This document shows positions 5,093-35,191 of a stretch of 35,191 nucleotides of DNA, one piece after another (position 1 is the stretch's first letter; the number at the start of each line of letters is the position of its first letter). The DNA lies in the NCBI GenBank assembly GCA_020346765.1, contig CP070788.1:2638162-2673352 (forward strand), written 5' to 3'. The translations under genes and the position numbers were made by a program. The DNA is from Nitrospiraceae bacterium. Its GTDB lineage: Bacteria > Nitrospirota > Thermodesulfovibrionia > UBA6902. The notes under the pieces were generated by a model that was not told the origin of the DNA, made no database searches, and worked only from the letters and a program-made list of their open reading frames with translations.

Positions 5093-6063
5093 GCGACAAG
5101 ATACTTTCACAGGATGAGGTTGATGCCCTTCTGAAAGGTGTTGCCTCCGGCGAAATTGACACAGATGACGCCCGGGACAAGATTCTCGCAGGGGTCAGGT
5201 CTTACGATTTTACCAACCAGGAGAGGATCATCAGAGGCAGGATGCCGGGGCTTGAGATGGCAAACGAAACCTTTACTCGGATGTTCAGGGGCTCTGTATC
5301 CAATCTTATCATGAAGTTTGTCGACATAAGCGTCCAGAATATGGACACCATCAAGTTCGGTGATTTTATAAAAGCCATTCCCGTCCCATCAAGTATCAAT
5401 GTATTCAAGATGGAGCCCCTCAAGGGCTACTCACTCCTTGTGCTGGAAGCCCCCCTTGTGTTCGCCTTTATTGAGTTTTTTTTCGGCGGTGCGAACGCCC
5501 AGAACATCAAGTCCGAGGGACGATCCTTCACGCATATTGAACAGAGGGTGATCCAGCGGGTGGTAAATATGGCGTTGTCGGACATGAAAAAGTCCTGGGC
5601 CAGCATTTCTCCCATCGAGGCGGAATATGTCAGTTCGGAGATCAATCCCCAGTTTGTTACGATCGTGACTCCCGCGGAAATTGTTATTAATATTGAGATC
5701 CTCATAGAAATAGAAGATTTTGCTGGCAGGATGTTTTTCTGCATCCCCTATTCACTCATTGAACCGGTCAGGGAGAAGCTCTACTCAGGAATACGGGGAG
5801 ATAATGTTGAGACAGACCAGCGGTGGACGAATGTGATGAAAAAGCTCCTCAACGATACGCCTGTGGAGGTTTCTGTTGAACTGGGGCGGCTCATGCTGAC
5901 TTTTGCCGACGTTATGAAATTCGAGGTGGGCAGCGTCCTGAACATGGGCAAGTCTGCGTCCAGCGAACTGGAGATAAAGGTTGAAGGGCATTCCAAGTTC
6001 AAGGGTGTACCGGGATACTGCGGGGGGGCCCAGGCAATCAAATTGACAGGAGTTGCAGATTAG
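5089..6063 (+). CDS. fliM: Flagellar motor switch protein FliM
   Basis: The 324-residue C-ring subunit binds CheY-P and sets rotation direction. The N-terminal CheY-binding motif ILSQDEVDALLKGV is at 5-18, followed by the CheC-like middle domain containing FFGGANAQ (131-138, the GGxx segment that contacts FliG). The C-terminal SpoA domain (about 245-315) packs with FliN. Length and all landmarks are normal. It overlaps fliL by 4 bases and lies 11 bases before fliN. Its partner cheY is at the left end of the window. Confidence 0.98.
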   Translation: MSDKILSQDEVDALLKGVASGEIDTDDARDKILAGVRSYDFTNQERIIRGRMPGLEMANETFTRMFRGSVSNLIMKFVDISVQNMDTIKFGDFIKAIPVPSSINVFKMEPLKGYSLLVLEAPLVFAFIEFFFGGANAQNIKSEGRSFTHIEQRVIQRVVNMALSDMKKSWASISPIEAEYVSSEINPQFVTIVTPAEIVINIEILIEIEDFAGRMFFCIPYSLIEPVREKLYSGIRGDNVETDQRWTNVMKKLLNDTPVEVSVELGRLMLTFADVMKFEVGSVLNMGKSASSELEIKVEGHSKFKGVPGYCGGAQAIKLTGVAD

Positions 6064-6074
6064 AGGAGCACTCA

Positions 6075-6452
6075 ATGGAGGGTACTATGGAAGACCAGAA
6101 ATCGGATAACAAGGAGAACGGCAAGGCGAAGGGCACTGCGGTGAAGGATCATGAGTTTGCTGACCTGAATAATGAAAGCAGTCATGCCACACAGAGAGAC
6201 ATCGAATTTCTTCTGGACATCCCGGTTGAGATAACAGTCCAGCTTGGCAGGGCCAAGATGCTGATAAAGGAACTCCTGCAGCTTGGTCAGGGCTCTGTTG
6301 TTGAGCTGGAAAAGCTGGCCGGCGAACCCATGGAAATCCTGGCAAACAATCGTCTCATAGCGCGGGGAGAGGTGGTTGTGGTCAATGAGAAGTTCGGTGT
6401 CAGGCTGACGGACATCATGAGTCCCTCGGAAAGGTTGACACAGCTGAAATGA
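6075..6452 (+). CDS. fliN: Flagellar motor switch protein FliN
   Basis: The 125-residue protein has a hydrophilic, charged N-terminus of about 40 residues and a SpoA domain (about 45-122) with IPVEITVQLGRAKMLIKEL and the C-terminal FGVRLTDIMS typical of FliN. FliN forms the base of the C-ring and also recruits export cargo complexes. GAGGAG lies 6 bases before the ATG at 6075; a second ATG at 6087 also has a nearby GGAGGG, so the first four residues are less certain. The stop overlaps the fliO start (ATGA). Confidence 0.97.
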   Translation: MEGTMEDQKSDNKENGKAKGTAVKDHEFADLNNESSHATQRDIEFLLDIPVEITVQLGRAKMLIKELLQLGQGSVVELEKLAGEPMEILANNRLIARGEVVVVNEKFGVRLTDIMSPSERLTQLK

Positions 6453-6760
6453 CAGGCGCTTATCTGCAGGCAGCAGCAGCCCTTGCCATTGTGATCCTCC
6501 TGATCGCCGGGATTGGCCATGTACTGAAAAAGAAGCAGAACAGGTCAGGACTCATGAAAGTGGTCGGCTATCACCCCTTCGGTCCCCGGAAAGGCGTAGC
6601 TGCCATGAAAATCGGAAAGGAAATCCTGATCCTGGGTGTGAGCCAGAACGACATGAGGTTGCTGAAGTCGTTCAGGGAGGACGAGGTTGAACTGGAGGAT
6701 TCCACCGGGTTTCCGGGGAAATTTCAGGGTCTGCTGGGTGCTGGTTCACAAAAGAACTGA
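6449..6760 (+). CDS. fliO: Flagellar export apparatus assembly protein FliO
   Basis: The 103-residue protein has one N-terminal transmembrane segment (about 5-25) and a small cytoplasmic domain with VVGYHPFGPRKGVAAMKIGKEILILGV, the pattern of FliO. FliO is a short-lived scaffold that promotes assembly of the FliP pore. Family sequences diverge strongly, so the position between fliN and fliP adds much of the confidence. The start overlaps the fliN stop (ATGA), and fliP starts 2 bases after its stop. Confidence 0.93.
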   Translation: MTGAYLQAAAALAIVILLIAGIGHVLKKKQNRSGLMKVVGYHPFGPRKGVAAMKIGKEILILGVSQNDMRLLKSFREDEVELEDSTGFPGKFQGLLGAGSQKN

Positions 6761-6762
6761 TC

Positions 6763-7527
6763 ATGAAAGAACTAAGGAATAACAACGCCGGTCGTTATCT
6801 GCAAAGAAAAGGCACGGGGCGCATTATCGCGGCGTCAGCAGCATTCATTGCTGTCACGGCAGCGATGATAACACCGGCACATGCCATTGACCTGAAAGAT
6901 ATCAACAACCCCCTGATCGAGACGTTTCTTATCATCAGCTTTCTCTCGTTCCTGCCGGCCGTCCTCATCATGCTGACTTCCTTTACGAGAATTGTGGTTA
7001 TCCTTTCTTTTTTGCGCCATGCCTTCGGCGGTCAGAGTGTGCCGCCAAATCCCGTGGTGATAGGGCTTTCCCTGTTTCTTACCTTTTTTATCATGTCTCC
7101 GACGATTACCGTAATCAATGAGAAGGCCGTTGCGCCGTATCTGCAGGACGACGTGTCTCTGGGCGAGGCCATTGAAAAGGCCGTACCGCCGCTGAGGACG
7201 TTCATGCTGAAACAGACGCGTCAGAAGGATATTGCCCTGTTTACCGGGCTATCGAGACAGAGCACCCCGGAAAAGGCTGAAGACGTGTCCATGGCCGTCC
7301 TGATTCCGGCCTTTGCCATCAGCGAACTGAAGACGTCCTTTGAAATAGGGTTTCTCCTGTTCCTGCCTTTTCTGATTGTTGACATGGTCATCGCGAGCAT
7401 ACTGCTGAGCATGGGAATGATGATGCTGCCGCCTGTCATGATATCACTGCCCTTTAAATTGCTGCTTTTTGTCCTTGTGGACGGGTGGAGCCTGGTCATC
7501 GGGTCCATGATGAGGAGCTTTCAATGA
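6763..7527 (+). CDS. fliP: Flagellar export gate protein FliP
   Basis: The 254-residue integral membrane protein has an N-terminal signal-like segment (about 20-41, ending near AHA) and four further hydrophobic segments. FliP family landmarks are TSFTRIVVILSFLRHAFG and the C-terminal LPFKLLLFVLVDGW. Five FliP subunits, with FliQ and FliR, form the entry pore of the flagellar type III export system. Length is normal for the long, signal-peptide-bearing form. It overlaps fliQ by 4 bases. Confidence 0.98.
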   Translation: MKELRNNNAGRYLQRKGTGRIIAASAAFIAVTAAMITPAHAIDLKDINNPLIETFLIISFLSFLPAVLIMLTSFTRIVVILSFLRHAFGGQSVPPNPVVIGLSLFLTFFIMSPTITVINEKAVAPYLQDDVSLGEAIEKAVPPLRTFMLKQTRQKDIALFTGLSRQSTPEKAEDVSMAVLIPAFAISELKTSFEIGFLLFLPFLIVDMVIASILLSMGMMMLPPVMISLPFKLLLFVLVDGWSLVIGSMMRSFQ

Positions 7528-7793
7528 CACTTGAGACAATCAACGGGATTTCCGCGGAGATGTTCAAGACCATACTCTATGTGGCCGGGCCGCCTCTTAT
7601 TGCCGGACTTGTGGTGGGGCTGCTCATCGGGTTTTTTCAGACAATAACGCAGATACAGGAATTCACTTTGACATTCGTGCCTAAAATGCTCGTCGTATTT
7701 ACCTGTCTTTTTATCCTCATGCCATGGATGTCAGAAAAGCTGATAACGTTTACGACAAACCTGATTTCGCAGATACCTTCCTATATACGGTGA
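7524..7793 (+). CDS. fliQ: Flagellar export gate protein FliQ
   Basis: The 89-residue protein is two hydrophobic hairpin helices separated by a short polar turn, with the family motif GFFQTITQIQEFTLTFVPKM. FliQ subunits wrap the FliP-FliR pore. The ATG at 7524 fits the normal size, overlaps the fliP stop in an ATGA arrangement, and has GAGGAG upstream. The longer frame from 7485 would overlap fliP with unrelated residues. An 88-base gap separates it from fliR. Confidence 0.97.
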   Translation: MTLETINGISAEMFKTILYVAGPPLIAGLVVGLLIGFFQTITQIQEFTLTFVPKMLVVFTCLFILMPWMSEKLITFTTNLISQIPSYIR

Positions 7794-23027: not shown

Positions 23028-23258
23028 ATGCTGGTATTGACACGGAAGTCAAATGAGTCTGTAAAGCTTGGAGATGAAATCACTGTGACGATCATCGAAG
23101 TAAAAGGGAATTCTGTCAGGCTGGGGATAGAGGCGCCGGCTGATATCAGGGTGTTCAGGAAAGAGCTCTATGAGAAAATCAGAGAGGAAAACTTCAGGTC
23201 TTCTAATCTCTTTATGGATGAATTTACCAAGATACGTAACGTGCTGAGGCCGAAATGA
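23028..23258 (+). CDS. csrA: Carbon storage regulator CsrA
   Basis: The 76-residue RNA-binding dimer represses translation by binding GGA motifs in mRNA leaders. The RNA-contact residues L4 and R44 (VFRKELYEKI) are present. The long C-terminus contains IREEN with N55; the same IxxEN segment is linked to FliW control in Bacillus subtilis CsrA. GGAGGAG precedes the ATG by 6 bases. The stop overlaps the fliW start (ATGA), and the flagellin gene is the next gene downstream, so flagellin mRNA is the likely main target. Confidence 0.96.
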   Translation: MLVLTRKSNESVKLGDEITVTIIEVKGNSVRLGIEAPADIRVFRKELYEKIREENFRSSNLFMDEFTKIRNVLRPK

Positions 23259-23674
23259 TAAAGGTACAAACGTCCCGCTTCGGAGAGCTGGCCGTAAGGG
23301 AAGACCGGGTGGTGAGTTTCCCCTCGGGCCTGATCGGCCTCCCGCGGTTGCAGCGTTTCTTCCTCATTGACCACAAGGATACACCGCTCAGCTGGCTCCA
23401 GGCCGTTGACGACCCTGACATCGCGTTTATTGTTGCCTCGCCCACGCTTATTGTCCAGGACTATTCATTGAACCTCGACAGCTCAGTAAAAAAGTATATC
23501 GAACTGCAAAATGACGATGATCTTGCTGTCCTTGTCACGGTGAGGGTTGAGGGGGACGATGTTATTGCCAATTTTCAGGGGCCTCTTGCGATAAATTCCC
23601 GAACCATGAAGGGTGTGCAGGTTGTTCTCGACCAGACCCCTGAGTCACCAAGGGAGCCGGGGAGCCCCCTATGA
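23255..23674 (+). CDS. fliW: Flagellar assembly factor FliW
   Basis: The 139-residue protein has the FliW pattern: SRFGELAVREDRVVSFPSGLIGLPRLQRFFLIDH, then LSWLQAVDDPDIAFIVASP and a final GPLAINSRTMKGVQVVLD. FliW binds flagellin or, when flagellin is exported, binds CsrA and relieves its repression. The start overlaps csrA by 4 bases, so both proteins are made together. A GAGTCA/TGACTC inverted repeat (23642-23677) spans the stop codon and may be a weak terminator or mRNA-stabilising hairpin. Confidence 0.96.
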   Translation: MIKVQTSRFGELAVREDRVVSFPSGLIGLPRLQRFFLIDHKDTPLSWLQAVDDPDIAFIVASPTLIVQDYSLNLDSSVKKYIELQNDDDLAVLVTVRVEGDDVIANFQGPLAINSRTMKGVQVVLDQTPESPREPGSPL

Positions 23675-24120: not shown

Positions 24121-24966
24121 ATGGGTTTAATAGTAAACACCAACCTTTTTTCTCTGAACGCTCAGAGAAACGTCAAGAACACACAGAACAGCCTCGGAAC
24201 GTCAGTAGAAAGATTATCTTCTGGTCTGAGAATCAACTCAGCCAAGGACGATGCCGCTGGTATGGCACTGTCCATGAAACTGACCGCCCATATCAGGAGC
24301 ATCAATCAGGCAGTCAGAAACGCACAGGACGGCATCAGTGTGGTTCAGACTGCTGAAGGCGGCATGAACGAGATTCACAACATCCTCACCCGGATGAGAG
24401 AACTCGCCATTCAGGCAGCTACGGGAACTTTGTCATCGAGCGACAGAACCTCTCTCCAGACAGAGTTCAATGACCTCAAGACTGAAATAACCAGAATATC
24501 GGATACCACCGAGTTCAACGGCCTGAAGCTCCTGAACGGAACCCTGAGCGGCAGCGGTGTGTCACTGCAGGTAGGCATTAATAACACCGTCAATGACAGG
24601 ATAGCAGTAACAGGCGGGGCCCTCGCGGACATCGATTCCTCTTCCCTTGGACTGAGCGGGACCGTTTCAAGCATTGACACGGCAGGCAACGCCCAGTCGA
24701 TGCTGGCCCTGGTTGACAGCGCTATCAGCACCGTCTCCACGAGGAGAGGCAACCTTGGCGCCGCACAGAACAGGCTTGGCAGCACCATTGCGAACCTTGA
24801 GATCGCCGCTGAGAACCTTTCCGCAGCAAACTCAAGGATCAAGGATGCTGATTTCGCCATCGAAACTGCGAACCTGACGAGGAGTCAGATCATCCTTCAG
24901 GCCGGCGTTGCCGTGCTGTCGCAGGCCAATGTAATGCCGCAGTATGCTCTGCAGCTTCTGGCGTAA
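24121..24966 (+). CDS. fliC: Flagellin
   Basis: The 281-residue filament subunit has conserved D0/D1 ends and a short central region (about 140-190) rich in serine, glycine and threonine, possible O-glycosylation positions. The N-terminus NTNLFSLNAQRNVKNTQNSLGTSVERLSSGLRINSAKDDAAGMA and LTRMRELAIQAATGTLS are classic. The C-terminus (DFAIETANLTRSQIILQAGVAVLSQANVMPQYALQLLA) deviates slightly from the usual NQLPQ ending. It is exported with FliS help. Controlled by the sigma-28 promoter at 23878 and probably by CsrA/FliW. It is the only flagellin gene in the window. Confidence 0.98.
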   Translation: MGLIVNTNLFSLNAQRNVKNTQNSLGTSVERLSSGLRINSAKDDAAGMALSMKLTAHIRSINQAVRNAQDGISVVQTAEGGMNEIHNILTRMRELAIQAATGTLSSSDRTSLQTEFNDLKTEITRISDTTEFNGLKLLNGTLSGSGVSLQVGINNTVNDRIAVTGGALADIDSSSLGLSGTVSSIDTAGNAQSMLALVDSAISTVSTRRGNLGAAQNRLGSTIANLEIAAENLSAANSRIKDADFAIETANLTRSQIILQAGVAVLSQANVMPQYALQLLA

Positions 24967-25016: not shown

Positions 25017-25047
25017 TCTAATAAGAGGACGGGCAGAGGTGAACACA

Positions 25048-25413
25048 ATGATTAGCAGCATATCCATAGAAGCAAAGGTGGAGCGGCTGCCAGCGGATAC
25101 TCAACGAAAGGACAGAGGTACCACTATTGCTTCACAGGCTGAAAAAAAGCGGGGAAAGGATGCAGGCAGTGAAGTGTTCAGATCCGAAGGAAGGACTGAC
25201 ATTGATGAAGCTGTAGAGAAAATTATAAGCACTGCCAGATTCCTCAATCGCGAGATACACCTGGAAATAGACAGGGAACTGGATATTATGATTGTAAAAG
25301 TGATTGATGGTGAAACAGAAAAGGTTATACGCCAGATTCCTCCGGAAGAGCTGGTTGAGCTGTCAAAAAACGCTAGAGATTTGAAAGGTCTCCTCATAGA
25401 CAAGGAGGGTTAA
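25048..25413 (+). CDS. flaG: FlaG-family protein
   Basis: The 121-residue protein has a hydrophilic N-terminal half and a C-terminal FlaG domain (about 50-121): VEKIISTARFLNREIHLEIDRELDIMIVKVIDGETEKVIRQIPPEELVEL. The IRQIPPEE motif is diagnostic. FlaG is associated with filament length in several bacteria. I prefer the ATG at 25048 with AGAGG 8 bases upstream; a GTG at 25039 would add three residues. It lies 2 bases before fliD. Confidence 0.93.
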   Translation: MISSISIEAKVERLPADTQRKDRGTTIASQAEKKRGKDAGSEVFRSEGRTDIDEAVEKIISTARFLNREIHLEIDRELDIMIVKVIDGETEKVIRQIPPEELVELSKNARDLKGLLIDKEG

Positions 25414-25415
25414 AC

Positions 25416-26786
25416 ATGTCAAGCTTCACCGTCGGCGGTCTGGCAACGGGAATAGACTACAATGATCTTATTTCAAAACTTATAGAGGTAAAGCGCAGGC
25501 CCATAGATATTCTGGAGAGCAAGAAATCATCGTACAATGAGAAAATGAACTCCTATAGTGAGCTTTCCTCGAAGCTTGCATCTCTGAAAAGCGCCGTCAA
25601 CAAGCTCAGGCTGGGTGCCACATTCTACGTCAGGACCGCTACGACGAGTGATGAAACGGTAGTTGAATCCACCGCAACAGGCGCAGCCTCTGTCGGCAAT
25701 TATGCCATAACTGTTACGACCCTTGCGTCGGCAGAAAAAGAAGTTCACAATGGCACAGGGCTTGCCTCACCATCTGATGTTGTTAACAGCAGCGGCAGCG
25801 ACAAGGTCTTCCAGTACACCTATGACGGAACGCAGCGCACTCTCTCTGTGCCGGAGGGGACGACCCTGGAAGGGCTTAAAAACCTCATCAATGATGACAT
25901 AGATAACCCAGGTATTTCTGCCACCCTCGTCAATGACGGGAGCAACGAGCGCATGGTTCTTACCGGGAATGACACAGGATCGTCAAAAAATATTACTGTT
26001 GATGCCGGGACAACTCTGGACGGCAGCGGCGGCACTTCAGACTTTACGGCAGCGGCGTTTACGGAAAACAAGACTGCAGCAAATGCTGATTTCACCATTG
26101 ACGGGCTTCAGATATCGAGAGAGACGAATTCCATCGCCGATGTAATCTCCGGAGTGACCATCACTCTGAAGAAAGAAGATTCGACGGCAAATATTTCCGT
26201 TGCCTCCGATAATGAGGAGATCAAGAAACAGATAGAGGAATTCGTCACTGCCTATAATGACGTCATGTCCTTTATTGCTGACAATACAGCCTATGATTCA
26301 ACAACCAAGGAAAGCGGCATACTCTCCGGAGAGGCAACGGTCAGGAACATTCAGAACAGTATGAGGTCTGCCGTATCGGGCAGCGTATCCGGTCTTTCAG
26401 GGGCGCTTAGCCTGCTTGCAGAAATCGGCATTACCACCGACTACAAGACAGGCAACCTCGAGATGAACAGCACAACGCTTGAGACAGAGCTCGGATCACA
26501 CCTTGATGACGTTGCTGATCTTTTCACGGACAGCTCCAATGGTATTGCAAAACAGATCTATGACTATACAGGAACCATCACCAGCTCAATTGACGGATCA
26601 ATCACGCTGAGGAAAGACGGTTTGCAGGACGTCATCAAGAACATCAGTGACACGATAAGAAACATGGAATTCAGGCTTGAAAAAACTGAGGACGATTTGG
26701 TGAGGAAATTCACTGCCCTCGAATCACTTGTGAGTAATTACACCACGATCGGGAACTTTCTGACAAACTTTTCAACTCGCGCTTAG
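25416..26786 (+). CDS. fliD: Flagellar filament cap protein FliD (HAP2)
   Basis: The 456-residue protein starts SSFTVGGLATGIDYNDLISKLIEVKRRPIDIL, the FliD N-terminal signature. It ends with a coiled-coil D0 region (LQDVIKNISDTIRNMEFRLEKTEDDLVRKFTALESLVSNY). The centre contains the D2/D3 domains, with a VASDNEEIKKQIEEFVTAYNDVMSFI-type helical stretch. FliD caps the filament and folds incoming flagellin. AGGAGGG lies about 7 bases before the ATG. Downstream fliS follows after 12 bases. Confidence 0.97.
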   Translation: MSSFTVGGLATGIDYNDLISKLIEVKRRPIDILESKKSSYNEKMNSYSELSSKLASLKSAVNKLRLGATFYVRTATTSDETVVESTATGAASVGNYAITVTTLASAEKEVHNGTGLASPSDVVNSSGSDKVFQYTYDGTQRTLSVPEGTTLEGLKNLINDDIDNPGISATLVNDGSNERMVLTGNDTGSSKNITVDAGTTLDGSGGTSDFTAAAFTENKTAANADFTIDGLQISRETNSIADVISGVTITLKKEDSTANISVASDNEEIKKQIEEFVTAYNDVMSFIADNTAYDSTTKESGILSGEATVRNIQNSMRSAVSGSVSGLSGALSLLAEIGITTDYKTGNLEMNSTTLETELGSHLDDVADLFTDSSNGIAKQIYDYTGTITSSIDGSITLRKDGLQDVIKNISDTIRNMEFRLEKTEDDLVRKFTALESLVSNYTTIGNFLTNFSTRA

Positions 26787-26798
26787 GAGGCAGCACAG

Positions 26799-27197
26799 AT
26801 GGATATTACAGGTTACAAAAAGACCGTTCTTGCGACGACTGACAAAGTTCAGGTTATTTTCATGCTCTATGAGGGAGCACTGAATCACATGAAGATTGCG
26901 AAAAAGAAGATTGAGTGTGGCGACATCACGTCAAAGGGTAAACATTTTTCCAAGGCCACTGCCATCATTACGGAACTTTCCAATGTGCTTGATATGGAAA
27001 AGGGCGGAGACATATCCCGGAACCTTAGAAGCCTCTACGAGTATGTGCTTAACCGGCTCCTCCATGCCAACCTTAACAATGATACTGAAGCACTGGAGGA
27101 CTCTGAGCGCGTCCTTGAGACACTCAAGAGCGGATGGAAAGAAATGATGGAGGGGATGAAGCAGAAGCAGACCCAAGAGGTCCGTATGGGAGCATGA
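26799..27197 (+). CDS. fliS: Flagellin export chaperone FliS (first copy)
   Basis: The 132-residue helical protein has the FliS core: YKKTVLATTDKVQVIFMLYEGALNHMKIAKKKIE (6-39), LSNVLDMEKGGDISRNLRSLYEYVLNRLLHAN and a last helix. FliS binds the flagellin C-terminus in the cytoplasm, prevents polymerisation and delivers it to FlhA. GGAGG lies about 10 bases upstream. A related second copy is encoded at 31910, beyond the large glycosyltransferase gene. This copy is in the standard position after fliD and is presumably the main chaperone. Confidence 0.95.
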   Translation: MDITGYKKTVLATTDKVQVIFMLYEGALNHMKIAKKKIECGDITSKGKHFSKATAIITELSNVLDMEKGGDISRNLRSLYEYVLNRLLHANLNNDTEALEDSERVLETLKSGWKEMMEGMKQKQTQEVRMGA

Positions 27198-27471: not shown

Positions 27472-30400
27472 GTGTCTATGAAAAAGATGCGTCTTGAAGA
27501 CTTCCGTGGCGATACGTCAGGGGTCATGGTAAGTGGCGGCAACGGTACACCCGCAGGCTACATGGACGGTGCAGAGAGTTATCTCTCCTCTGTCCTGCAG
27601 AAAAGCCTGGACCTGAGTATCTTCTCCCGTGAGTTGAAGGCAGCGGTCAAAGACTGGCCCAGCCTCTACCATCTCAGCCCGTATCGGACCACGATCATGG
27701 ACTGCCTTGGCCTGCGCAGCGGAACTGCACGGGTGCTTGAACTGGGAGCAGGCTGCGGAGCTGTGACCCGCTGGCTCGGGGAGAAATTTCACCATGTCGT
27801 AGCCGTTGAGGGAAACTACCAGCGGGCGAAGATCGCCAGGCAGCGGTGCCGGGATCTCTCCTCCGTGAATGTCTATGGAGCGAACTTTCTGGACCTGGAC
27901 CTGAAAGGACGATTTGACATAGCGACACTCGTCGGTGTTCTCGAATACAGCCATCTCTACCACCCTCTGTTCAGGAACGACCCTGATGGTGCTGCCTTTT
28001 CGATACTGAACATGGTCTTCGAATCATTGGCGGACCGCGGGATTCTGGTACTTGCACTGGAAAACCGGCTGGGGTTGAAATATTTCAGCGGTGCCAGGGA
28101 AGACCATTCGGGGAAGATATTTGACGGGATACAGGGGTATCCGTCAAAGAAATCAGCGGTGACCTTCAGCGCGGCCCGGCTTGAGGACATGATCATAAAG
28201 GCGGGTTTTTCTTCGGCTTCCTTTTATCTCCCCTTCCCTGACTACAAACTGGCATCGACGATCTTCAGAGGGGACCGGCTTTCCCGCGATTATTTCCTTC
28301 ACAACTGGATTGAAACACCCTTTCCGGACCGGAGTGATGTCCGGAGGACCCTTCTGTTCAATGAGAGCCTCGTTATGCGGGAGGTAGGACGGGCAGGACT
28401 GCTCAGAGACATAGCCAATGCATTTCTCATCGTTGCAACTAAGGGGGAAAAGACAGCAGTTCAGGACGTGCTTTTTTCAGGAGATGAGGACTGGATTGCA
28501 CGCCATTATTCACTGGGGAGGCACACTCCCTTTCACAAGATAGCAACGCTGCGGCAAATCCAGCCTGGAGAACTCATCATTGAAAACGCCTCGCCCCATG
28601 CATGCGCGGAGCCGGAGCATGCCGTAGATTCGTGTTTCACACACCGCTTCACCCGTGAACAGTATTGCCGGGGGGACCAGCTGATCTATCAGGTATTCGA
28701 AATGCTTGCGTCAGGCCGCTTTGAGACAGACTTCATCAATATTGTCAGACAACTCAACTCATATCTTCTTGAACGATATGCAACAGGTGAAAAAGACGCA
28801 GAGGGAATCCCCTTGCTCAAGGGAGATGCGCTGGATGCCCTGTTTTGGAACATCATTATCACGGATGGTACGGGTGAATGGACCTGTATTGACCGGGAGT
28901 GGTCATTTGAGGGCAGTCTCCCGGCGGACATTATCCTGTGGCGCAATCTCTACCACCTGCTGATGAGGTATCACCGCTACATCGAGGACGCTATCACCGA
29001 TCAAATGAAGCATGACTTTATCATGGCATGCCTGCGAGCGATCTACCCCGCATTCAACGAGGTAAGGTACGCACAGGCGCAGCGCGTGGATGACTATTTT
29101 CAGGACTACGCCCATCATGGTATTGCAGCGGACAGGGCCTCACTGCAGGGCAGTTATAAAGGAGGGCTGAAGGTGGAATCAGGAACAGGGGAAAAGAACG
29201 ATGCTCCTGCATACATTTCAGCTGCGGGCAGTCATACGGCCGGACCCTGGAAGCAGGGAAGGGATACCATAAAGGAGCTGGTATCGATCATCATCCCTGT
29301 ATTCAACAAAATGGAGTACACGCAGAATTGCCTTGAAAACATCGCGCTGAACACCTCCTATGATCCCTATGAAGTGATTATCGTTGACAATGGGTCCTCT
29401 GACGGGACAAAAGACTTATTGAGAGGGATTAAGGGAGATGTAACGACCATTACGAATAAGGAGAACCTTGGTTTTGCCATGGCATGCAATCAGGGAGCCA
29501 GAGCTGCCCGGGGAGAGTATCTGGTATTTCTGAATAATGACACGGCCCCCCAGCCGGACTGGCTCGAAAACCTTGTAAAAGCCATCACCGCGAGACCTGA
29601 TGTCGCTGTCGTAGGATGCAAGCTTATCTATCCTGACAAACGGATCCAGCATGCCGGCGTAGTATTCGGACATTGCGACAAGGGCCCCAGTGTCTATCAC
29701 ATATACCGGGGACTCCCCCATGATCACAGGGCAGTGAACCGTGTAAGGGAATTCAACGCCGTAACTGCCGCCTGCATGCTTGTGAAGAGCAGCATCTTTT
29801 TTGAGACAGGCATGTTTGATGAAGGATTTAGGAACGGGTACGAGGACATTGATTTCTGCCTGCGAATACGGCAGCAGGGCATGAAAATCCTCTATACTCC
29901 GGACAGTGTCCTCTATCACCATGAAGAGACAACCGAAGGCAGGCGTTCCCATGGGGAACATAATACGCGCTACTTTTTGCAGAAGTGGAGTAAAAGGATC
30001 GTCTCCGATGACCGGGAGAAGGCGTGCGAGGACGGATTCCGGATAGAATGCCCGTCCGGGACAGAAGTTCAGCTGATACCAATAGAGGTGCAGGAGGTGG
30101 AAAAGACTCCTCCGCACCCGGGAAATGAATGCGGCCTCAAGCACGCGGCAGCGTCCGGCAAGAAAAAGATTGCCATTGTGCGCGGGGCGAACCTGAACAA
30201 GTGGGAAATGCAGAACTATGAGCCGCTTGCAGACAAATATGACCTCATTGCCTATACAACGAAAGGGCATATGTACGATACCGGCACGGTGAAATTGCCG
30301 GTCAGGGAAGTCCCTTCCCGTTCACAGGGTTTGCTGCTGGAAATGGAAGGACTGGAAGAGCATCTCGCGGACATGGACCTGGTTTTTTCCGCTGACATCA

Positions 30401-31662
30401 CGTACCGGTTTTCTGCCCAGGCAGTCATGGCGAAGCAGAAATACGGAACCAGAGTTGTCTGCCTTGAATGGGAAAACATCCCCTTTAATTATGAAGAGCA
30501 TCAGGCCGTAGGCGCAATAAAGGAGACGGTCAGGTACGGGGCCGACCACTTTATAGCCGTTACAGAGCGGGCGAAGGAGGCGCTGATGCTTGAGGGCGTC
30601 CCTTCCGGAAAGATTGATGTTGTTCCCATGGGAGTTGATCTTACTGTCTTTCGTCCTGATGAAAGGTACGTGGAGACAGACAGGGAGAGGTTGAGGATCG
30701 GCAGGAATGACATTGTGATTCTCTGCATAGGCAGGATGGTATGGGAGAAGGGGATTTATGATTACCTTCATGCCGCTGCCACTATTATGAGAGATCCCGC
30801 GCTGAAAGACTGCCCGGTAAAGTTTCTCGTTGTCGGGAAAGGGCAGGAACTGCAGGGGGTTCATGAACGGGCTGCACGGCTCTCCCTGGGAGACACGTTT
30901 GTCTTAAGGGAAGAGTATCCCTATCAGCAAATCTGCAGGCTGCACAATCTCTGCGATATATTTGTTCTACCCAGCATTGCGACGAAGACATGGCAGGAGC
31001 AGTTCGGCATGGTGCTTATCGAGAGTATGGCCTGCGGCAAGCCTGTCATCTCCACGCTGTCAGGGTCAATCCCAGAGGTGGTAGGAGATGCCGGTATTCT
31101 GGTGCAGCCTAATGACCACCTGTCTCTTTACAAGGCGGCAAAACAGCTTATGCTTGACAGGGAACTGAGAGCAGAGCTTGGCAGAAGGGCCCTTGAGAGG
31201 GCCCGGGAGAGGTATGACTCCCGAAAAACGGCTGAGCGCATAGGGCAAATATTTGAAAAAGTTCTGTGCCGGTGCAGCGATAAAGAGGACCCTGACGGTA
31301 TGTATGAAGAAGGGATGGCCACATGGAACAGGGGGCACAGGCTGCGAGGATTTGACACAGTCCGCAAAGCATTTTTCATGGACCCTGACAGGGCAGATGT
31401 TATTGACTCGCTTGTCAGGATGGGGATGGAGTTAAAAAGATATGAAACCGTGGAAAAGGCGTTACGGGAATACCTGTCCTATCACCCGGTAAACTTTGAT
31501 GCACTCATATCTCTGTCAGAAGTGCTTGTCTGTCTCGGAAGAACCAGGGATGCTGAAGAGGAACTCAGGAAGGTTTTCATCTTCAACAAAGAGCACAGGC
31601 GCGCCTGTGAACTGAGAGACAGGCTGAGCAGCATCTCACCTGCGCAGAATACGCCCGTATAA
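27472..31662 (+). CDS. Giant fusion: methyltransferase, kinase-like segment, GT2 and GT4 glycosyltransferases, TPR-like tail
   Basis: The 1396-residue protein has at least five parts. (1) SAM methyltransferase, about 75-250, with motif VLELGAGCG (88-96). (2) A segment at about 300-560 containing DALFWNIII (455-463) and IDREW (473-477), resembling the catalytic and metal loops of aminoglycoside-kinase-like folds. (3) GT2 glycosyltransferase, about 603-830, with SIIIPVFN, IVDNGSSDGT, FLNNDT (686-691) and YEDIDFCLR. (4) GT-B/GT4 glycosyltransferase, about 897-1265, with GRMVWEKG and the E-x7-E motif at E1176/E1184. (5) TPR-like helices, about 1275-1385. No signal peptide or membrane segment is seen, so it is probably cytoplasmic. 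Position between two fliS genes suggests flagellin or surface-glycan modification. The start could be GTG 27472 or ATG 27478. Confidence 0.88.
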   Translation: MSMKKMRLEDFRGDTSGVMVSGGNGTPAGYMDGAESYLSSVLQKSLDLSIFSRELKAAVKDWPSLYHLSPYRTTIMDCLGLRSGTARVLELGAGCGAVTRWLGEKFHHVVAVEGNYQRAKIARQRCRDLSSVNVYGANFLDLDLKGRFDIATLVGVLEYSHLYHPLFRNDPDGAAFSILNMVFESLADRGILVLALENRLGLKYFSGAREDHSGKIFDGIQGYPSKKSAVTFSAARLEDMIIKAGFSSASFYLPFPDYKLASTIFRGDRLSRDYFLHNWIETPFPDRSDVRRTLLFNESLVMREVGRAGLLRDIANAFLIVATKGEKTAVQDVLFSGDEDWIARHYSLGRHTPFHKIATLRQIQPGELIIENASPHACAEPEHAVDSCFTHRFTREQYCRGDQLIYQVFEMLASGRFETDFINIVRQLNSYLLERYATGEKDAEGIPLLKGDALDALFWNIIITDGTGEWTCIDREWSFEGSLPADIILWRNLYHLLMRYHRYIEDAITDQMKHDFIMACLRAIYPAFNEVRYAQAQRVDDYFQDYAHHGIAADRASLQGSYKGGLKVESGTGEKNDAPAYISAAGSHTAGPWKQGRDTIKELVSIIIPVFNKMEYTQNCLENIALNTSYDPYEVIIVDNGSSDGTKDLLRGIKGDVTTITNKENLGFAMACNQGARAARGEYLVFLNNDTAPQPDWLENLVKAITARPDVAVVGCKLIYPDKRIQHAGVVFGHCDKGPSVYHIYRGLPHDHRAVNRVREFNAVTAACMLVKSSIFFETGMFDEGFRNGYEDIDFCLRIRQQGMKILYTPDSVLYHHEETTEGRRSHGEHNTRYFLQKWSKRIVSDDREKACEDGFRIECPSGTEVQLIPIEVQEVEKTPPHPGNECGLKHAAASGKKKIAIVRGANLNKWEMQNYEPLADKYDLIAYTTKGHMYDTGTVKLPVREVPSRSQGLLLEMEGLEEHLADMDLVFSADITYRFSAQAVMAKQKYGTRVVCLEWENIPFNYEEHQAVGAIKETVRYGADHFIAVTERAKEALMLEGVPSGKIDVVPMGVDLTVFRPDERYVETDRERLRIGRNDIVILCIGRMVWEKGIYDYLHAAATIMRDPALKDCPVKFLVVGKGQELQGVHERAARLSLGDTFVLREEYPYQQICRLHNLCDIFVLPSIATKTWQEQFGMVLIESMACGKPVISTLSGSIPEVVGDAGILVQPNDHLSLYKAAKQLMLDRELRAELGRRALERARERYDSRKTAERIGQIFEKVLCRCSDKEDPDGMYEEGMATWNRGHRLRGFDTVRKAFFMDPDRADVIDSLVRMGMELKRYETVEKALREYLSYHPVNFDALISLSEVLVCLGRTRDAEEELRKVFIFNKEHRRACELRDRLSSISPAQNTPV

Positions 31663-31909: not shown

Positions 31910-32278
31910 ATGGAAGGAACGGCTTTGAATCAGCAGGTTAAGACGGATGTATCAGACGGGCTGGAAATAGTATCAATGCTCTATGACGGTGCTCTCAGGT
32001 TTATCGATAAGGCCAAAGAGAAAATAAAGATTGGTGACGCAGTCGGGAGATCCCACTTTATTAAAAAGACATCGGCCATTGTGAAGGAACTTTCAATGTC
32101 GATTAACAACGATGGCGGGGAAATTGCACTGAACCTGAGAAACCTCTATGACTTTGTTCTGGAAAGTCTCGTGAAGGCCGATGCTGACAATGACATGAAC
32201 GCTCTCATCAATGCAGAACGGGTCCTGGACATACTCCGCAGTGCCTGGACGGACATGCAGGCGGCAGGAAAAATATAG
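31910..32278 (+). CDS. FliS-like flagellin chaperone (second copy)
   Basis: The 122-residue protein is a FliS paralogue: LEIVSMLYDGALRFIDKAKEKIKIGDA (about 18-44), LSMSINNDGGEIALNLRNLYDFVLESLVKADADND and VLDILRSAWTDM. MLYDGALRF is closer to the family consensus than the corresponding segment of the first copy. The N-terminus lacks the usual aromatic YxxxxV start and reads TALNQQVKTDVSDG, so flagellin binding may differ. AAAGGAGG precedes the ATG. It may serve flagellin, a second secreted substrate, or the glycosylation step; none of this is shown by sequence. Confidence 0.9.
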   Translation: MEGTALNQQVKTDVSDGLEIVSMLYDGALRFIDKAKEKIKIGDAVGRSHFIKKTSAIVKELSMSINNDGGEIALNLRNLYDFVLESLVKADADNDMNALINAERVLDILRSAWTDMQAAGKI

Positions 32279-33071: not shown

Positions 33072-34061
33072 ATGACTAAGCCGGGGGTGTCCATTATCAT
33101 CCGGTGTTTCAATGAGGAAGCCCATATAGGGCGGCTCCTTACCGGTGTTTACGAGCAAACTGTTGATAACGTTGAAGTCATCATCGTTGATTCCGGTTCT
33201 ACGGATCGTACGTTATCCATTGCCTCATCGTTTCCCGTTATTATCCGTACAATCCCGTCTGAGGAATTCTCGTTCGGACGGGCCCTCAATGCAGGCTGTG
33301 GGGCAGCACGGGGAGAGTACCTTGTTTTTGCAAGTGCACATGTCTATCCCAACCACCGCCGGTGGCTGGAATATTTAATTGCTCCCTTCCGGCATCATAA
33401 GGTTGCCCTTACCTACGGACGGCAGAGGGGGAACAGACAGAACAAGTTTTCTGAGCACCGGATATTTGCTGCGTGGTATCCGGATCAGTCCGTCCATATC
33501 CAGAATTCGCCGTTCTGCAACAATGCCAATGCTGCGATACGAAAGAGATTGTGGCATGACATACCGTTCAACGAAAGCCTGACCGGGCTGGAGGACCTTG
33601 AATGGGCAAAGAGGGCGATCGGCGCCGGTTACTGCCTCTCCTATGTTGCCGAAGCTGAAGTTGTTCACGTCCATAATGAGCGATACACCGGGATATTCAA
33701 CCGCTACTACCGGGAGTCAATCGTCTTCTATCAGCTCTTCCCGGAACAGAAGTTTAATCTGCGGGATTTCTGCTGGCTCTGGTTCATGAATACGGCCACA
33801 GATTATCTCCATGCCGTGAGGGAAAGATCATTCATGAGAAACGCCTTTGCAATCCCCCTGTTCCGGATGATGCAGTTCTGGGGAACCTACAGGGGGTATT
33901 GCCGCCGTGATCCTGTCAGCGCTGCACTGAGGGAGCGGTTTTACTACCCCAACGGACGGAACCATCGGACTCCGTCTCAGGGAATCTCCTGTACTTCCGA
34001 TGATGACTATATCGATTATCTCAAGGTGAATAATGAAAACAATGTCGGACAGTCTCATTGA
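33072..34061 (+). CDS. Family 2 glycosyltransferase
   Basis: The 329-residue protein has a GT-A/GT2 fold: GVSIIIRCFNEEAHIGRLL (5-23), VEVIIVDSGSTDRT (34-47) and GEYLVFASAHVYP (81-93). The segment that normally carries the DxD metal motif reads ASAH, as in some rhamnosyltransferase-like GT2 enzymes. GLEDLEWAKRAI (172-183) supplies the probable catalytic ED. The C-terminal third is aromatic-rich without an obvious membrane anchor. The sugar donor and acceptor are unknown. Its end overlaps the cyclase gene by 29 bases, suggesting one translation unit. Confidence 0.93.
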   Translation: MTKPGVSIIIRCFNEEAHIGRLLTGVYEQTVDNVEVIIVDSGSTDRTLSIASSFPVIIRTIPSEEFSFGRALNAGCGAARGEYLVFASAHVYPNHRRWLEYLIAPFRHHKVALTYGRQRGNRQNKFSEHRIFAAWYPDQSVHIQNSPFCNNANAAIRKRLWHDIPFNESLTGLEDLEWAKRAIGAGYCLSYVAEAEVVHVHNERYTGIFNRYYRESIVFYQLFPEQKFNLRDFCWLWFMNTATDYLHAVRERSFMRNAFAIPLFRMMQFWGTYRGYCRRDPVSAALRERFYYPNGRNHRTPSQGISCTSDDDYIDYLKVNNENNVGQSH

Positions 34062-34701
34062 TATCTCTGTCCCGTTAGGTCCATCCCTGCCCATCTGGCC
34101 GGGAAGCACGGGACTAACGATTGAGCGCGTGAGCTCCTTTGAAAAGGGAAATGACGTTAACGTTACCGGTCTGAGCTGCGATGTCCACACGGGCACGCAT
34201 ATAGAGGCCCCGCTGCACTTTATCCCCGGAGGATCGGGAGTTACAGAAATTCCTCTCGATGTATTAATCGGCGATGTCCTGGTGGCCTGTACCGCCGATG
34301 CAGATGTGATCACCTCTCAGGTGCTTGATTCACTCCCTATCCCCCGGCGCACGAAAAGGCTGCTGCTCAGGACGAAGAATTCAGGGCTGTGGGATGATGC
34401 GAACGGGACCTTTGTCCGTGAGTATGCGACCCTGAACAGGGAGGCAGCCCGGTGGATCGTTGACCGTGGCATCAAACTCCTGGGTGTGGATTACCTCTCC
34501 GTCGAGACATATGGTGACGCCGGCTGCCCGATCCATAAAACGCTGCTTGCCGGAGGTGTCATCATCGTAGAATCATTAAATCTGTCCGGAATCAGTCCGG
34601 GAATGTATGAGCTGATCTGCCTGCCTCTCAAACTGACAGGAGCAGAGGCCGCGCCTGCACGGGCAGTGCTCCGCGTGATGAAGGGAGAACATAACGGGTG
34701 A
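34033..34701 (+). CDS. Cyclase-family metal-dependent hydrolase (kynurenine formamidase-like)
   Basis: The 222-residue protein belongs to the cyclase family (Pfam Cyclase, kynurenine formamidase fold). The metal-binding motif HTGTHIEAPLHF is at 52-63, with H52, H56, E58 and H62, where the third ligand is E instead of the more usual D. An N-terminal DISVPLGPSLPIWPG and GVDYLSVE (near 159-166) are also typical. Family members hydrolyse amides or formamides. Here it is translationally coupled to a glycosyltransferase and a sugar cytidylyltransferase, so a sugar or formamido-sugar substrate is more likely than a tryptophan metabolite, which is inference. ATG 34033 or 34042 may be the start. Confidence 0.88.
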   Translation: MKTMSDSLIDISVPLGPSLPIWPGSTGLTIERVSSFEKGNDVNVTGLSCDVHTGTHIEAPLHFIPGGSGVTEIPLDVLIGDVLVACTADADVITSQVLDSLPIPRRTKRLLLRTKNSGLWDDANGTFVREYATLNREAARWIVDRGIKLLGVDYLSVETYGDAGCPIHKTLLAGGVIIVESLNLSGISPGMYELICLPLKLTGAEAAPARAVLRVMKGEHNG

Positions 34702-35191
34702 AACGTGCAGACCGCTCAGGAAGGCCCACAATTGCGGCACTTGTTCCCATGAGACATACCAGTGAGAGAGTTCCGGGGAAGAATTACCGTTTCCTGGGCA
34801 ACAGGCCGCTCTATCATCACATCGTTGAGAGCCTGATTGCATGTCCCCATATCTCAGAGGTCTGCATTGACACGGACAGCCCCTTCATCGTCTCGGACGC
34901 TCCTGCCCATTTCCCCGTGCGCATTATTGAGCGTCCTGAACGGCTCAGGTCAGGGTTTGAACCCATGAACAATATCCTGTTGTATGATGTCTCGCAGATC
35001 AACGCCGACTTTTATCTGCAAACACACAGTACTAACCCGCTTCTTAAGGCTGGAACGATTTCAAGGGCAATAGAGACATTTCTTTCACCGGGGGGGCATG
35101 ATTCGCTCTTTGGCGTCAGCCGGCTTCAGACCCGCCTCTATGACGCAGAGGGACGCCCGCTCAACCACGATCCCCATGTGCTGGAAAGGAC
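34698..35191 (+). CDS. Acylneuraminate-type cytidylyltransferase, N-terminal part (cut by window edge)
   Basis: A GTG overlapping the cyclase stop (GTGA), with AGGGAG 10 bases upstream, starts a frame that stays open to the window edge (164 codons). It has the signature ALVPMRHTSERVPGKN (14-29), then LGNRPLYHHIVESL and VCIDTDSP, which match CMP-sialic acid, legionaminic or pseudaminic acid synthetases. These enzymes join a nonulosonic acid to CMP. FYLQTHSTNPLL corresponds to the family's usual LQPTSPL-like segment. The exact sugar cannot be told from this part. CMP-activated nonulosonates often decorate flagellins. Confidence 0.88.
   Translation, partial: MKRADRSGRPTIAALVPMRHTSERVPGKNYRFLGNRPLYHHIVESLIACPHISEVCIDTDSPFIVSDAPAHFPVRIIERPERLRSGFEPMNNILLYDVSQINADFYLQTHSTNPLLKAGTISRAIETFLSPGGHDSLFGVSRLQTRLYDAEGRPLNHDPHVLER

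Follow-up and report, generated by a model that had tools for sequence, protein, structure and literature searches.

A methyltransferase, kinase-like and glycosyltransferase fusion with a TPR tail at a Nitrospirota flagellin locus: a candidate enzyme for capped flagellin glycans

Background

In the flagellar cluster of a Nitrospiraceae bacterium, one reading frame lying between two fliS genes joins a methyltransferase, a kinase-like region, two glycosyltransferases (GT2 and GT4) and a TPR tail. What does such a protein build, and on which acceptor? Flagellin enzymes of the TPR-glycosyltransferase kind are already known, and so are methyltransferase-kinase-glycosyltransferase chain terminators and flagellin glycans that bear phosphate. 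In the literature searched, most subscription journals excluded, neither the union of TPR-glycosyltransferase and methyltransferase-kinase modules at flagellin loci nor a flagellin carrying methylphosphate was found; the preliminary description of this DNA knew of no described system with the full combination beside fliS. The window protein is proposed here to be, probably, a cytosolic single-chain flagellin O-glycan enzyme, which docks its substrate through the TPR tail, builds a short glycan and ends it with a methyl-phosphate cap.

The fusion gene and its neighbourhood

The window is the whole stretch of DNA analysed (35,191 nucleotides of contig CP070788.1, assembly GCA_020346765.1, positions 2638162-2673352). 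Its features around the fusion gene are listed in Table 1; the remainder is a large flagellar cluster.

Table 1. Features of the window around the fusion gene, with the evidence for each
Feature	Position	Strand	Evidence and remarks
fliW	23255..23674	+	PF02623
fliC, flagellin, proposed substrate	24121..24966	+	PF00669 9.6e-47, PF00700
flaG	25039..25413	+	PF03646
fliD, filament cap	25416..26786	+	PF07195 2.9e-55
fliS1, flagellin export chaperone	26799..27197	+	PF02561 3.9e-37
Giant GT2/GT4 fusion ORF	27472-31662	+	GTG start, 1396 aa, internal stops absent
Module 1, class I SAM methyltransferase	27472..28296	+	residues 1-275; Pfam Methyltransf_25 at residues 88-160, 1.9e-7; glycine motif ELGAGCG, residues 90-96
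Module 2, kinase-like domain	28357..29130	+	residues 296-553; invariant D455-x4-N460...D474
Module 3, GT2 glycosyltransferase	29263..30021	+	residues 598-850; PF00535 (Glycos_transf_2) 1.4e-31, residues 605-723
Module 4, GT4 glycosyltransferase	30154..31281	+	residues 895-1270; PF00534 (Glycos_transf_1) 3.3e-31, residues 1068-1241; Glyco_transf_4, residues 942-1058; E-x7-E motif EQFGMVLIE at residue 1176
Module 5, TPR tail, proposed flagellin docking	31282..31659	+	residues 1271-1396; TPR_19 in 12/12 homologues
fliS2, separate conserved FliS paralogue	31910..32278	+	PF02561 1.7e-25
MerR-type HTH protein, first of downstream cassette common with L022	32681..33028	+	PF13411, synteny
GT2 glycosyltransferase, accessory glycan gene	33072..34061	+	PF00535; orthologue in L022
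Arylformamidase/cyclase-like protein, glycan cassette	34033..34701	+	PF04199; orthologue in L022
CMP-sugar cytidylyltransferase-like gene	34698..35189	+	PF02348; runs past window edge into assembly N run

The Pfam searches recovered the methyltransferase and both glycosyltransferase folds that had been read directly from the sequence, as well as the FliS family on either side of the gene. The helical-repeat tail is matched weakly in the window protein alone (TPR_19, E 0.0019); since all the GT4-TPR homologues searched match TPR_19 (best 4.5e-10), it is nevertheless secure as a family feature. Residues about 276-598 matched no Pfam family.

The two fliS genes are not the result of a recent duplication, as nine FliS2 sequences group together in a clade of their own, separate from FliS1 (SH-aLRT 100). 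Residues 141-196 of the flagellin contain 15 Ser/Thr. The N run interrupting the cytidylyltransferase leaves the downstream glycan cassette only partly visible, and no sugar-donor pathway was identified within the window. No Rfam families were matched in the window, and sigma-70-like sites near the giant gene were fewer than expected by chance.

The N-terminal methyltransferase-kinase pair

In an alignment of 26 homologues, Y30, Y66, G92, G94, E113 and Y159 of the methyltransferase are invariant, and so are D455 (the predicted catalytic residue, encoded at 28834-28836), N460 and D474 of the kinase-like domain. A Citrobacter homologue outside this set carries E in the D474 column of our own alignment. 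An Asp separated by four residues from an Asn, with a further Asp 14 residues on, is the spacing of protein and aminoglycoside kinases.

The functional guide is ORF6 of Klebsiella pneumoniae O7, in which a methyltransferase and a kinase domain lacking annotation are followed by a coiled coil and two GT2 domains. ORF6 places methyl-phosphate on the terminal rhamnose and thereby ends the chain, the product having been shown by NMR (PMC11231755). Its reported functional residues are Y28, Y66, G91, G93, E112, Y158 and D441, and the D441A mutant is inactive (PMC11231755). The comparison with ORF6 was made through L101, a homologue from a Pseudomonas plasmid, and the published residue numbers. L101 has Y28, Y66, G91, G93, E112 and Y158 at exactly the published positions and D443 for D441, and the same alignment columns are occupied in the window protein by Y30, Y66, G92, G94, E113, Y159 and D455, the counterparts of all seven ORF6 residues. 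Judged from these alignments, the N-terminal pair is homologous to the methyltransferase-kinase of the O7-ORF6 type; the alignment and the invariant triad together support module 2 as a putative kinase.

AlphaFold2 modelled residues 1-553 with pLDDT 89.5 and pTM 0.91 from the 26 sequences; only three sequences gave a low-confidence model (pLDDT 41.6). A profile of the kinase region found no kinase match in PDB or Pfam, and the matches listed by Foldseek were all of the methyltransferase type. The PDB and viral fold lists were filled by methyltransferases and say nothing about the kinase half. For ORF6, likewise, its authors found no sequence match between the kinase and known kinases (PMC11231755). 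There was no PDB sequence match to WbdD at E<=1, and kinases were absent from the PDB profile and fold lists, themselves filled by methyltransferases. The preliminary description had named methyltransferase-kinase terminators of the WbdD type as known; the predicted capping pair stands, and its likelier type is that of O7 ORF6, whose kinase is different from that of WbdD (PMC11231755).

The coiled coil was not seen after the kinase in the window protein (heptad score 0.60 on a home-made scale) or in the relative L021, as against mostly 1.0-1.4 for exporter-type proteins on the same scale. Its absence from all flagellar types was considered and rejected, Nitrospira-type flagellar proteins having a heptad-rich stretch.

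The pair could also modify flagellin by another chemistry, for example sugar O-methylation, N-methylation or phosphorylation of side chains, or the handling of phospho-amino acids as in the Pseudomonas b-type and C. difficile type A systems. In C. difficile type B, the GT2 carries a methyltransferase domain for which rhamnose methylation has been proposed (PMC5207246), and the b-type glycan contains phosphate and dimethylthreonine (PMC11833859). However, all the reported SAM-site and catalytic residues of O7 ORF6 are kept in the window protein, and the known phospho-threonine systems use separate genes of the PA1088-PA1090 type, none of which was identified here; we regard this alternative as unlikely and favour methyl-phosphate capping.

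Flagellar and exporter contexts of the pair

Profile searches for the methyltransferase-kinase pair had matches in 17 of the 396 Nitrospirota genomes (in some, to the methyltransferase part only), in 3 of the 399 genomes sampled from Pseudomonadota and in 12 of the 297 genomes in the phylum of a Deltaproteobacteria-labelled MAG. Homologues are rare in the class (5/231 genomes, one of these a weak methyltransferase-only match). Plasmids carry them in Citrobacter braakii (pF217-3) and Pseudomonas asturiensis (pCC1524); no relatives were found in viral contigs, nor any DNA match to the Citrobacter homologue in E. coli genomes.

Among 28 loci examined for context, 12 adjoin Wzm/Wzt exporters, 12 lie at flagellin genes (window, L021, L064, L065, L092-L095, L132, L133, L138, L141) and four have neither within the sequence examined; the flagellar set is uneven, mostly Nitrospirota with two from another phylum. 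The capping pair thus belongs to exporter-dependent polysaccharide clusters as well, which qualifies the first reading of the locus.

An enzyme for making or capping an O7-like surface polysaccharide on a lipid carrier, placed in a flagellar locus by chance or through co-regulation, would agree with the 12 exporter-linked homologues and with the description of the family as an O-antigen terminator (PMC11231755). Several observations speak against it. Wzm/Wzt was unmatched at the flagellar-type loci scanned, and no such exporter adjoins the giant gene, the neighbours of which are flagellar genes and the glycan cassette. TPR repeats occur in all seven flagellar-type methyltransferase-kinase proteins tested and in none of the 11 exporter-type ones. 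Flagellar loci are found in two phyla and at several positions of the tree, and the same fliS slot is occupied in many genomes. A surface polysaccharide is therefore quite improbable as the product, and flagellin is the preferred acceptor. The preliminary description had held that its reading would fall if homologues were mostly in O-antigen or exopolysaccharide clusters with no flagellar link. This is not the pattern seen: 12 of the 28 loci are flagellin loci, and fliS was the only setting in which the GT4-TPR core turned up.

On the tree of 29 methyltransferase-kinase pairs, the well supported branches require the context to have changed four times or more, so the surroundings of the pair have switched repeatedly. 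A single transfer to flagella is not supported, these branches forcing four changes.

The fliS1-fliS2 slot

One scan found the order fliW-fliC-flaG-fliD-fliS1-gene(-fliS2) again, to the contig limits, in thirteen further loci, complete or partial, and G220 has it as well; the arrangement fliS1-gene-fliS2 was seen in ten loci with both flanks visible. The slot is conserved across genera. Its constant part is the GT4-TPR core (53-61% identity to the window protein in 11 relatives), around which the N-terminal modules are swapped between genomes. The window protein and L021 carry methyltransferase-kinase-GT2, L022 (1798 aa) a methyltransferase and two GT2 domains, L023 a methyltransferase with a TPR-like region, L024, L026 and L032 a methyltransferase only, and L029 and L030 no N-terminal module. 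In G220 the methyltransferase-kinase is fused straight to the TPR tail, both GT2 and GT4 missing.

In the class, fliS is no more than 1.5 kb away in all 13 loci of GT4 homologues with a TPR tail, against one of ten loci of those without it (our own count, two contig-end fragments omitted); the exception, L032/L157, fills the slot without a TPR tail. The TPR tail goes with the flagellar location, and the first reading is corrected for the N-terminus, which is the swapped part.

The nearest relatives are Nitrospirota MAGs, several of which bear the class label Thermodesulfovibrionia. L021/G013 has the identical five-module order in one frame of 1395 aa at 54% identity to the window protein; the fusion is therefore no assembly accident and is under constraint, and the uninterrupted polypeptide read at the outset is confirmed as a real observation by the stop-free frame, Pfam and relatives. 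The L021 protein begins MRLENF, which bears on the start of the giant ORF, for which an ATG 6 or 15 bases 3' of the GTG is a possible alternative. A functionless fusion produced by decay or misassembly, for which the MAG origin of the sequence, the N run just past the window end and the gene split over two places in the relative G219 might be cited, is highly improbable and was already disfavoured by this full-length relative and by catalytic residues conserved across modules.

Proposed mechanism

On the reading favoured here, the C-terminal TPR tail would hold flagellin before its export; the TPR domain of Caulobacter FlmG binds flagellin (PMC7591256). The GT4, which adjoins the TPR tail and is nearly constant in the slot, is on these grounds the best candidate for setting the first sugar on Ser/Thr, and the GT2 would add the next. 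The kinase domain may then phosphorylate the outer sugar and the methyltransferase methylate the sugar phosphate, the resulting methyl-phosphate cap ending growth. Glycosylated flagellin would pass to FliS1/FliS2 and on to the flagellar export gate. In Aeromonas, glycosylation of flagellin precedes its binding by the chaperone (PMC4065374), which fits the co-location of the giant gene with fliS.

The slot variants modify this scheme. The G220 protein implies that attachment does not always fall to GT4 and suggests that the TPR tail can bring the capping pair to flagellin already glycosylated; the L032 variant shows that the TPR is not indispensable. Most simply, flagellar versions would have kept the cap and lost the exporter, with flagellin brought in as acceptor by the TPR tail. 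The initial prediction, in which one flagellin-linked protein combines several glycan-building enzymes with a methyltransferase-kinase cap, is supported; as a whole, that first reading appears largely right and is partly supported.

On a wider scale, flagellin glycosyltransferases with a TPR may have acquired polysaccharide chain-terminator modules on several occasions, in two phyla or more, which would have given a class of flagellin glycans ending in methyl-phosphate. The fliS1-fliS2 slot would then be a place where modules are swapped and the flagellin glycan is diversified around a constant GT4-TPR core; we hold this with about equal belief and doubt. The protein connects the field of flagellin glycosylation with that of the methyl-phosphate enzymes which terminate exporter-dependent polysaccharides. 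If the reading is right, a new flagellin modification, a capped sugar, is predicted in environmental Nitrospirota and their relatives, glycan machinery would have been re-aimed from lipid carriers to protein through a TPR dock in place of the ruler, and a one-protein system would be available for glyco-engineering.

Comparison with known systems

The window protein resembles Klebsiella pneumoniae O7 ORF6 (PMC11231755) in having a methyltransferase followed by an unannotated kinase, with the seven functional residues kept, fused to glycosyltransferase modules. ORF6 works with an ABC exporter, has a coiled-coil ruler and ends in GT2-GT2 (PMC11231755), whereas the window protein is encoded at a flagellin locus, continues as GT2-GT4-TPR and has no coiled coil seen after the kinase. 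E. coli O9a WbdD is also a bifunctional methyltransferase-kinase and makes a terminal methyl-phosphate; its kinase differs in sequence and structure (PMC11231755), and it is separate from the glycosyltransferases and has a coiled-coil ruler.

Among flagellin enzymes, Caulobacter FlmG (PMC7591256) likewise combines TPR and a GT-B glycosyltransferase in one chain, is encoded with flagellin and acts on it in the cytoplasm. FlmG has a single glycosyltransferase using a pseudaminic acid donor, without methyltransferase, kinase or GT2 (PMC7591256), and its TPR is N-terminal, unlike the C-terminal TPR of the window protein. In Pseudomonas aeruginosa b-type (FgtA/PA1088-PA1091) and C. difficile type A, a GT2 of the flagellin locus is similarly fused to a second activity and the glycan carries phosphate and methyl groups (PMC11833859). 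There, however, the phosphate is linked to a methylated threonine for which other genes are responsible, the proposed phosphotransferase is different and there is no GT4-TPR fusion (PMC11833859).

Variation in the module content of the slot proteins

Proteins occupying the position between fliS1 and fliS2 do not always carry the full set of modules. In L064, from genome G220, the TPR tail is fused directly to the methyltransferase-kinase pair with neither GT2 nor GT4, and no GT4-TPR core was found elsewhere in that genome. The L032 protein lacks the TPR tail and is nonetheless placed between the two fliS genes. The homologue in G219/G471 (CP070644) appears to be divided over two distant chromosomal sites, with the methyltransferase part at 1.966 Mb and the GT2 and GT4-TPR parts at 0.63 Mb, reflecting either an inversion with a breakpoint inside the gene or an error of assembly.

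Coordinates of slot proteins, relatives and neighbouring genes
Feature	Locus	Position	Remarks
Slot protein	L064 (G220:C69)	5446-7596	716 aa
Slot protein	L032	9332-11227	methyltransferase and GT4, no TPR tail
Split homologue	L065 + L031	12237-13118 + 9818-12704	G219/G471
CxxCxxCC (PF03692) metal-binding-domain ORF	L021; L028	8386-9723; 7775-9004	409-445 aa
FliS2	window	31910-32278
Cytidylyltransferase gene	window; L066	34698-35189; 3860-4486	enters run of N near window end
Flagellar-type protein	L092	7175-11485	extra N-terminal CDP-glycerol glycerophosphotransferase-like region (PF04464)

Genes around the slot

In L021 and L028 the PF03692 ORF is inserted between fliS1 and the large gene. FliS2 of the window belongs to a conserved paralogue clade apart from FliS1 (nine loci) and may serve glycosylated flagellin. 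As the cytidylyltransferase gene runs into undetermined bases, the downstream glycan island may extend unseen; further cassette genes follow downstream in L022, a slot relative sharing the cassette.

Other methyltransferase-kinase architectures

Nitrospirota family f32 has giant ORFs of ~2500-3500 aa (L126-L129, L134, L142) that combine the methyltransferase-kinase pair with several GT2-like stretches; of these loci, L134 and L142 were read, and neither showed fliC or Wzm/Wzt. The PF04464-like region of L092 precedes the methyltransferase-kinase pair.
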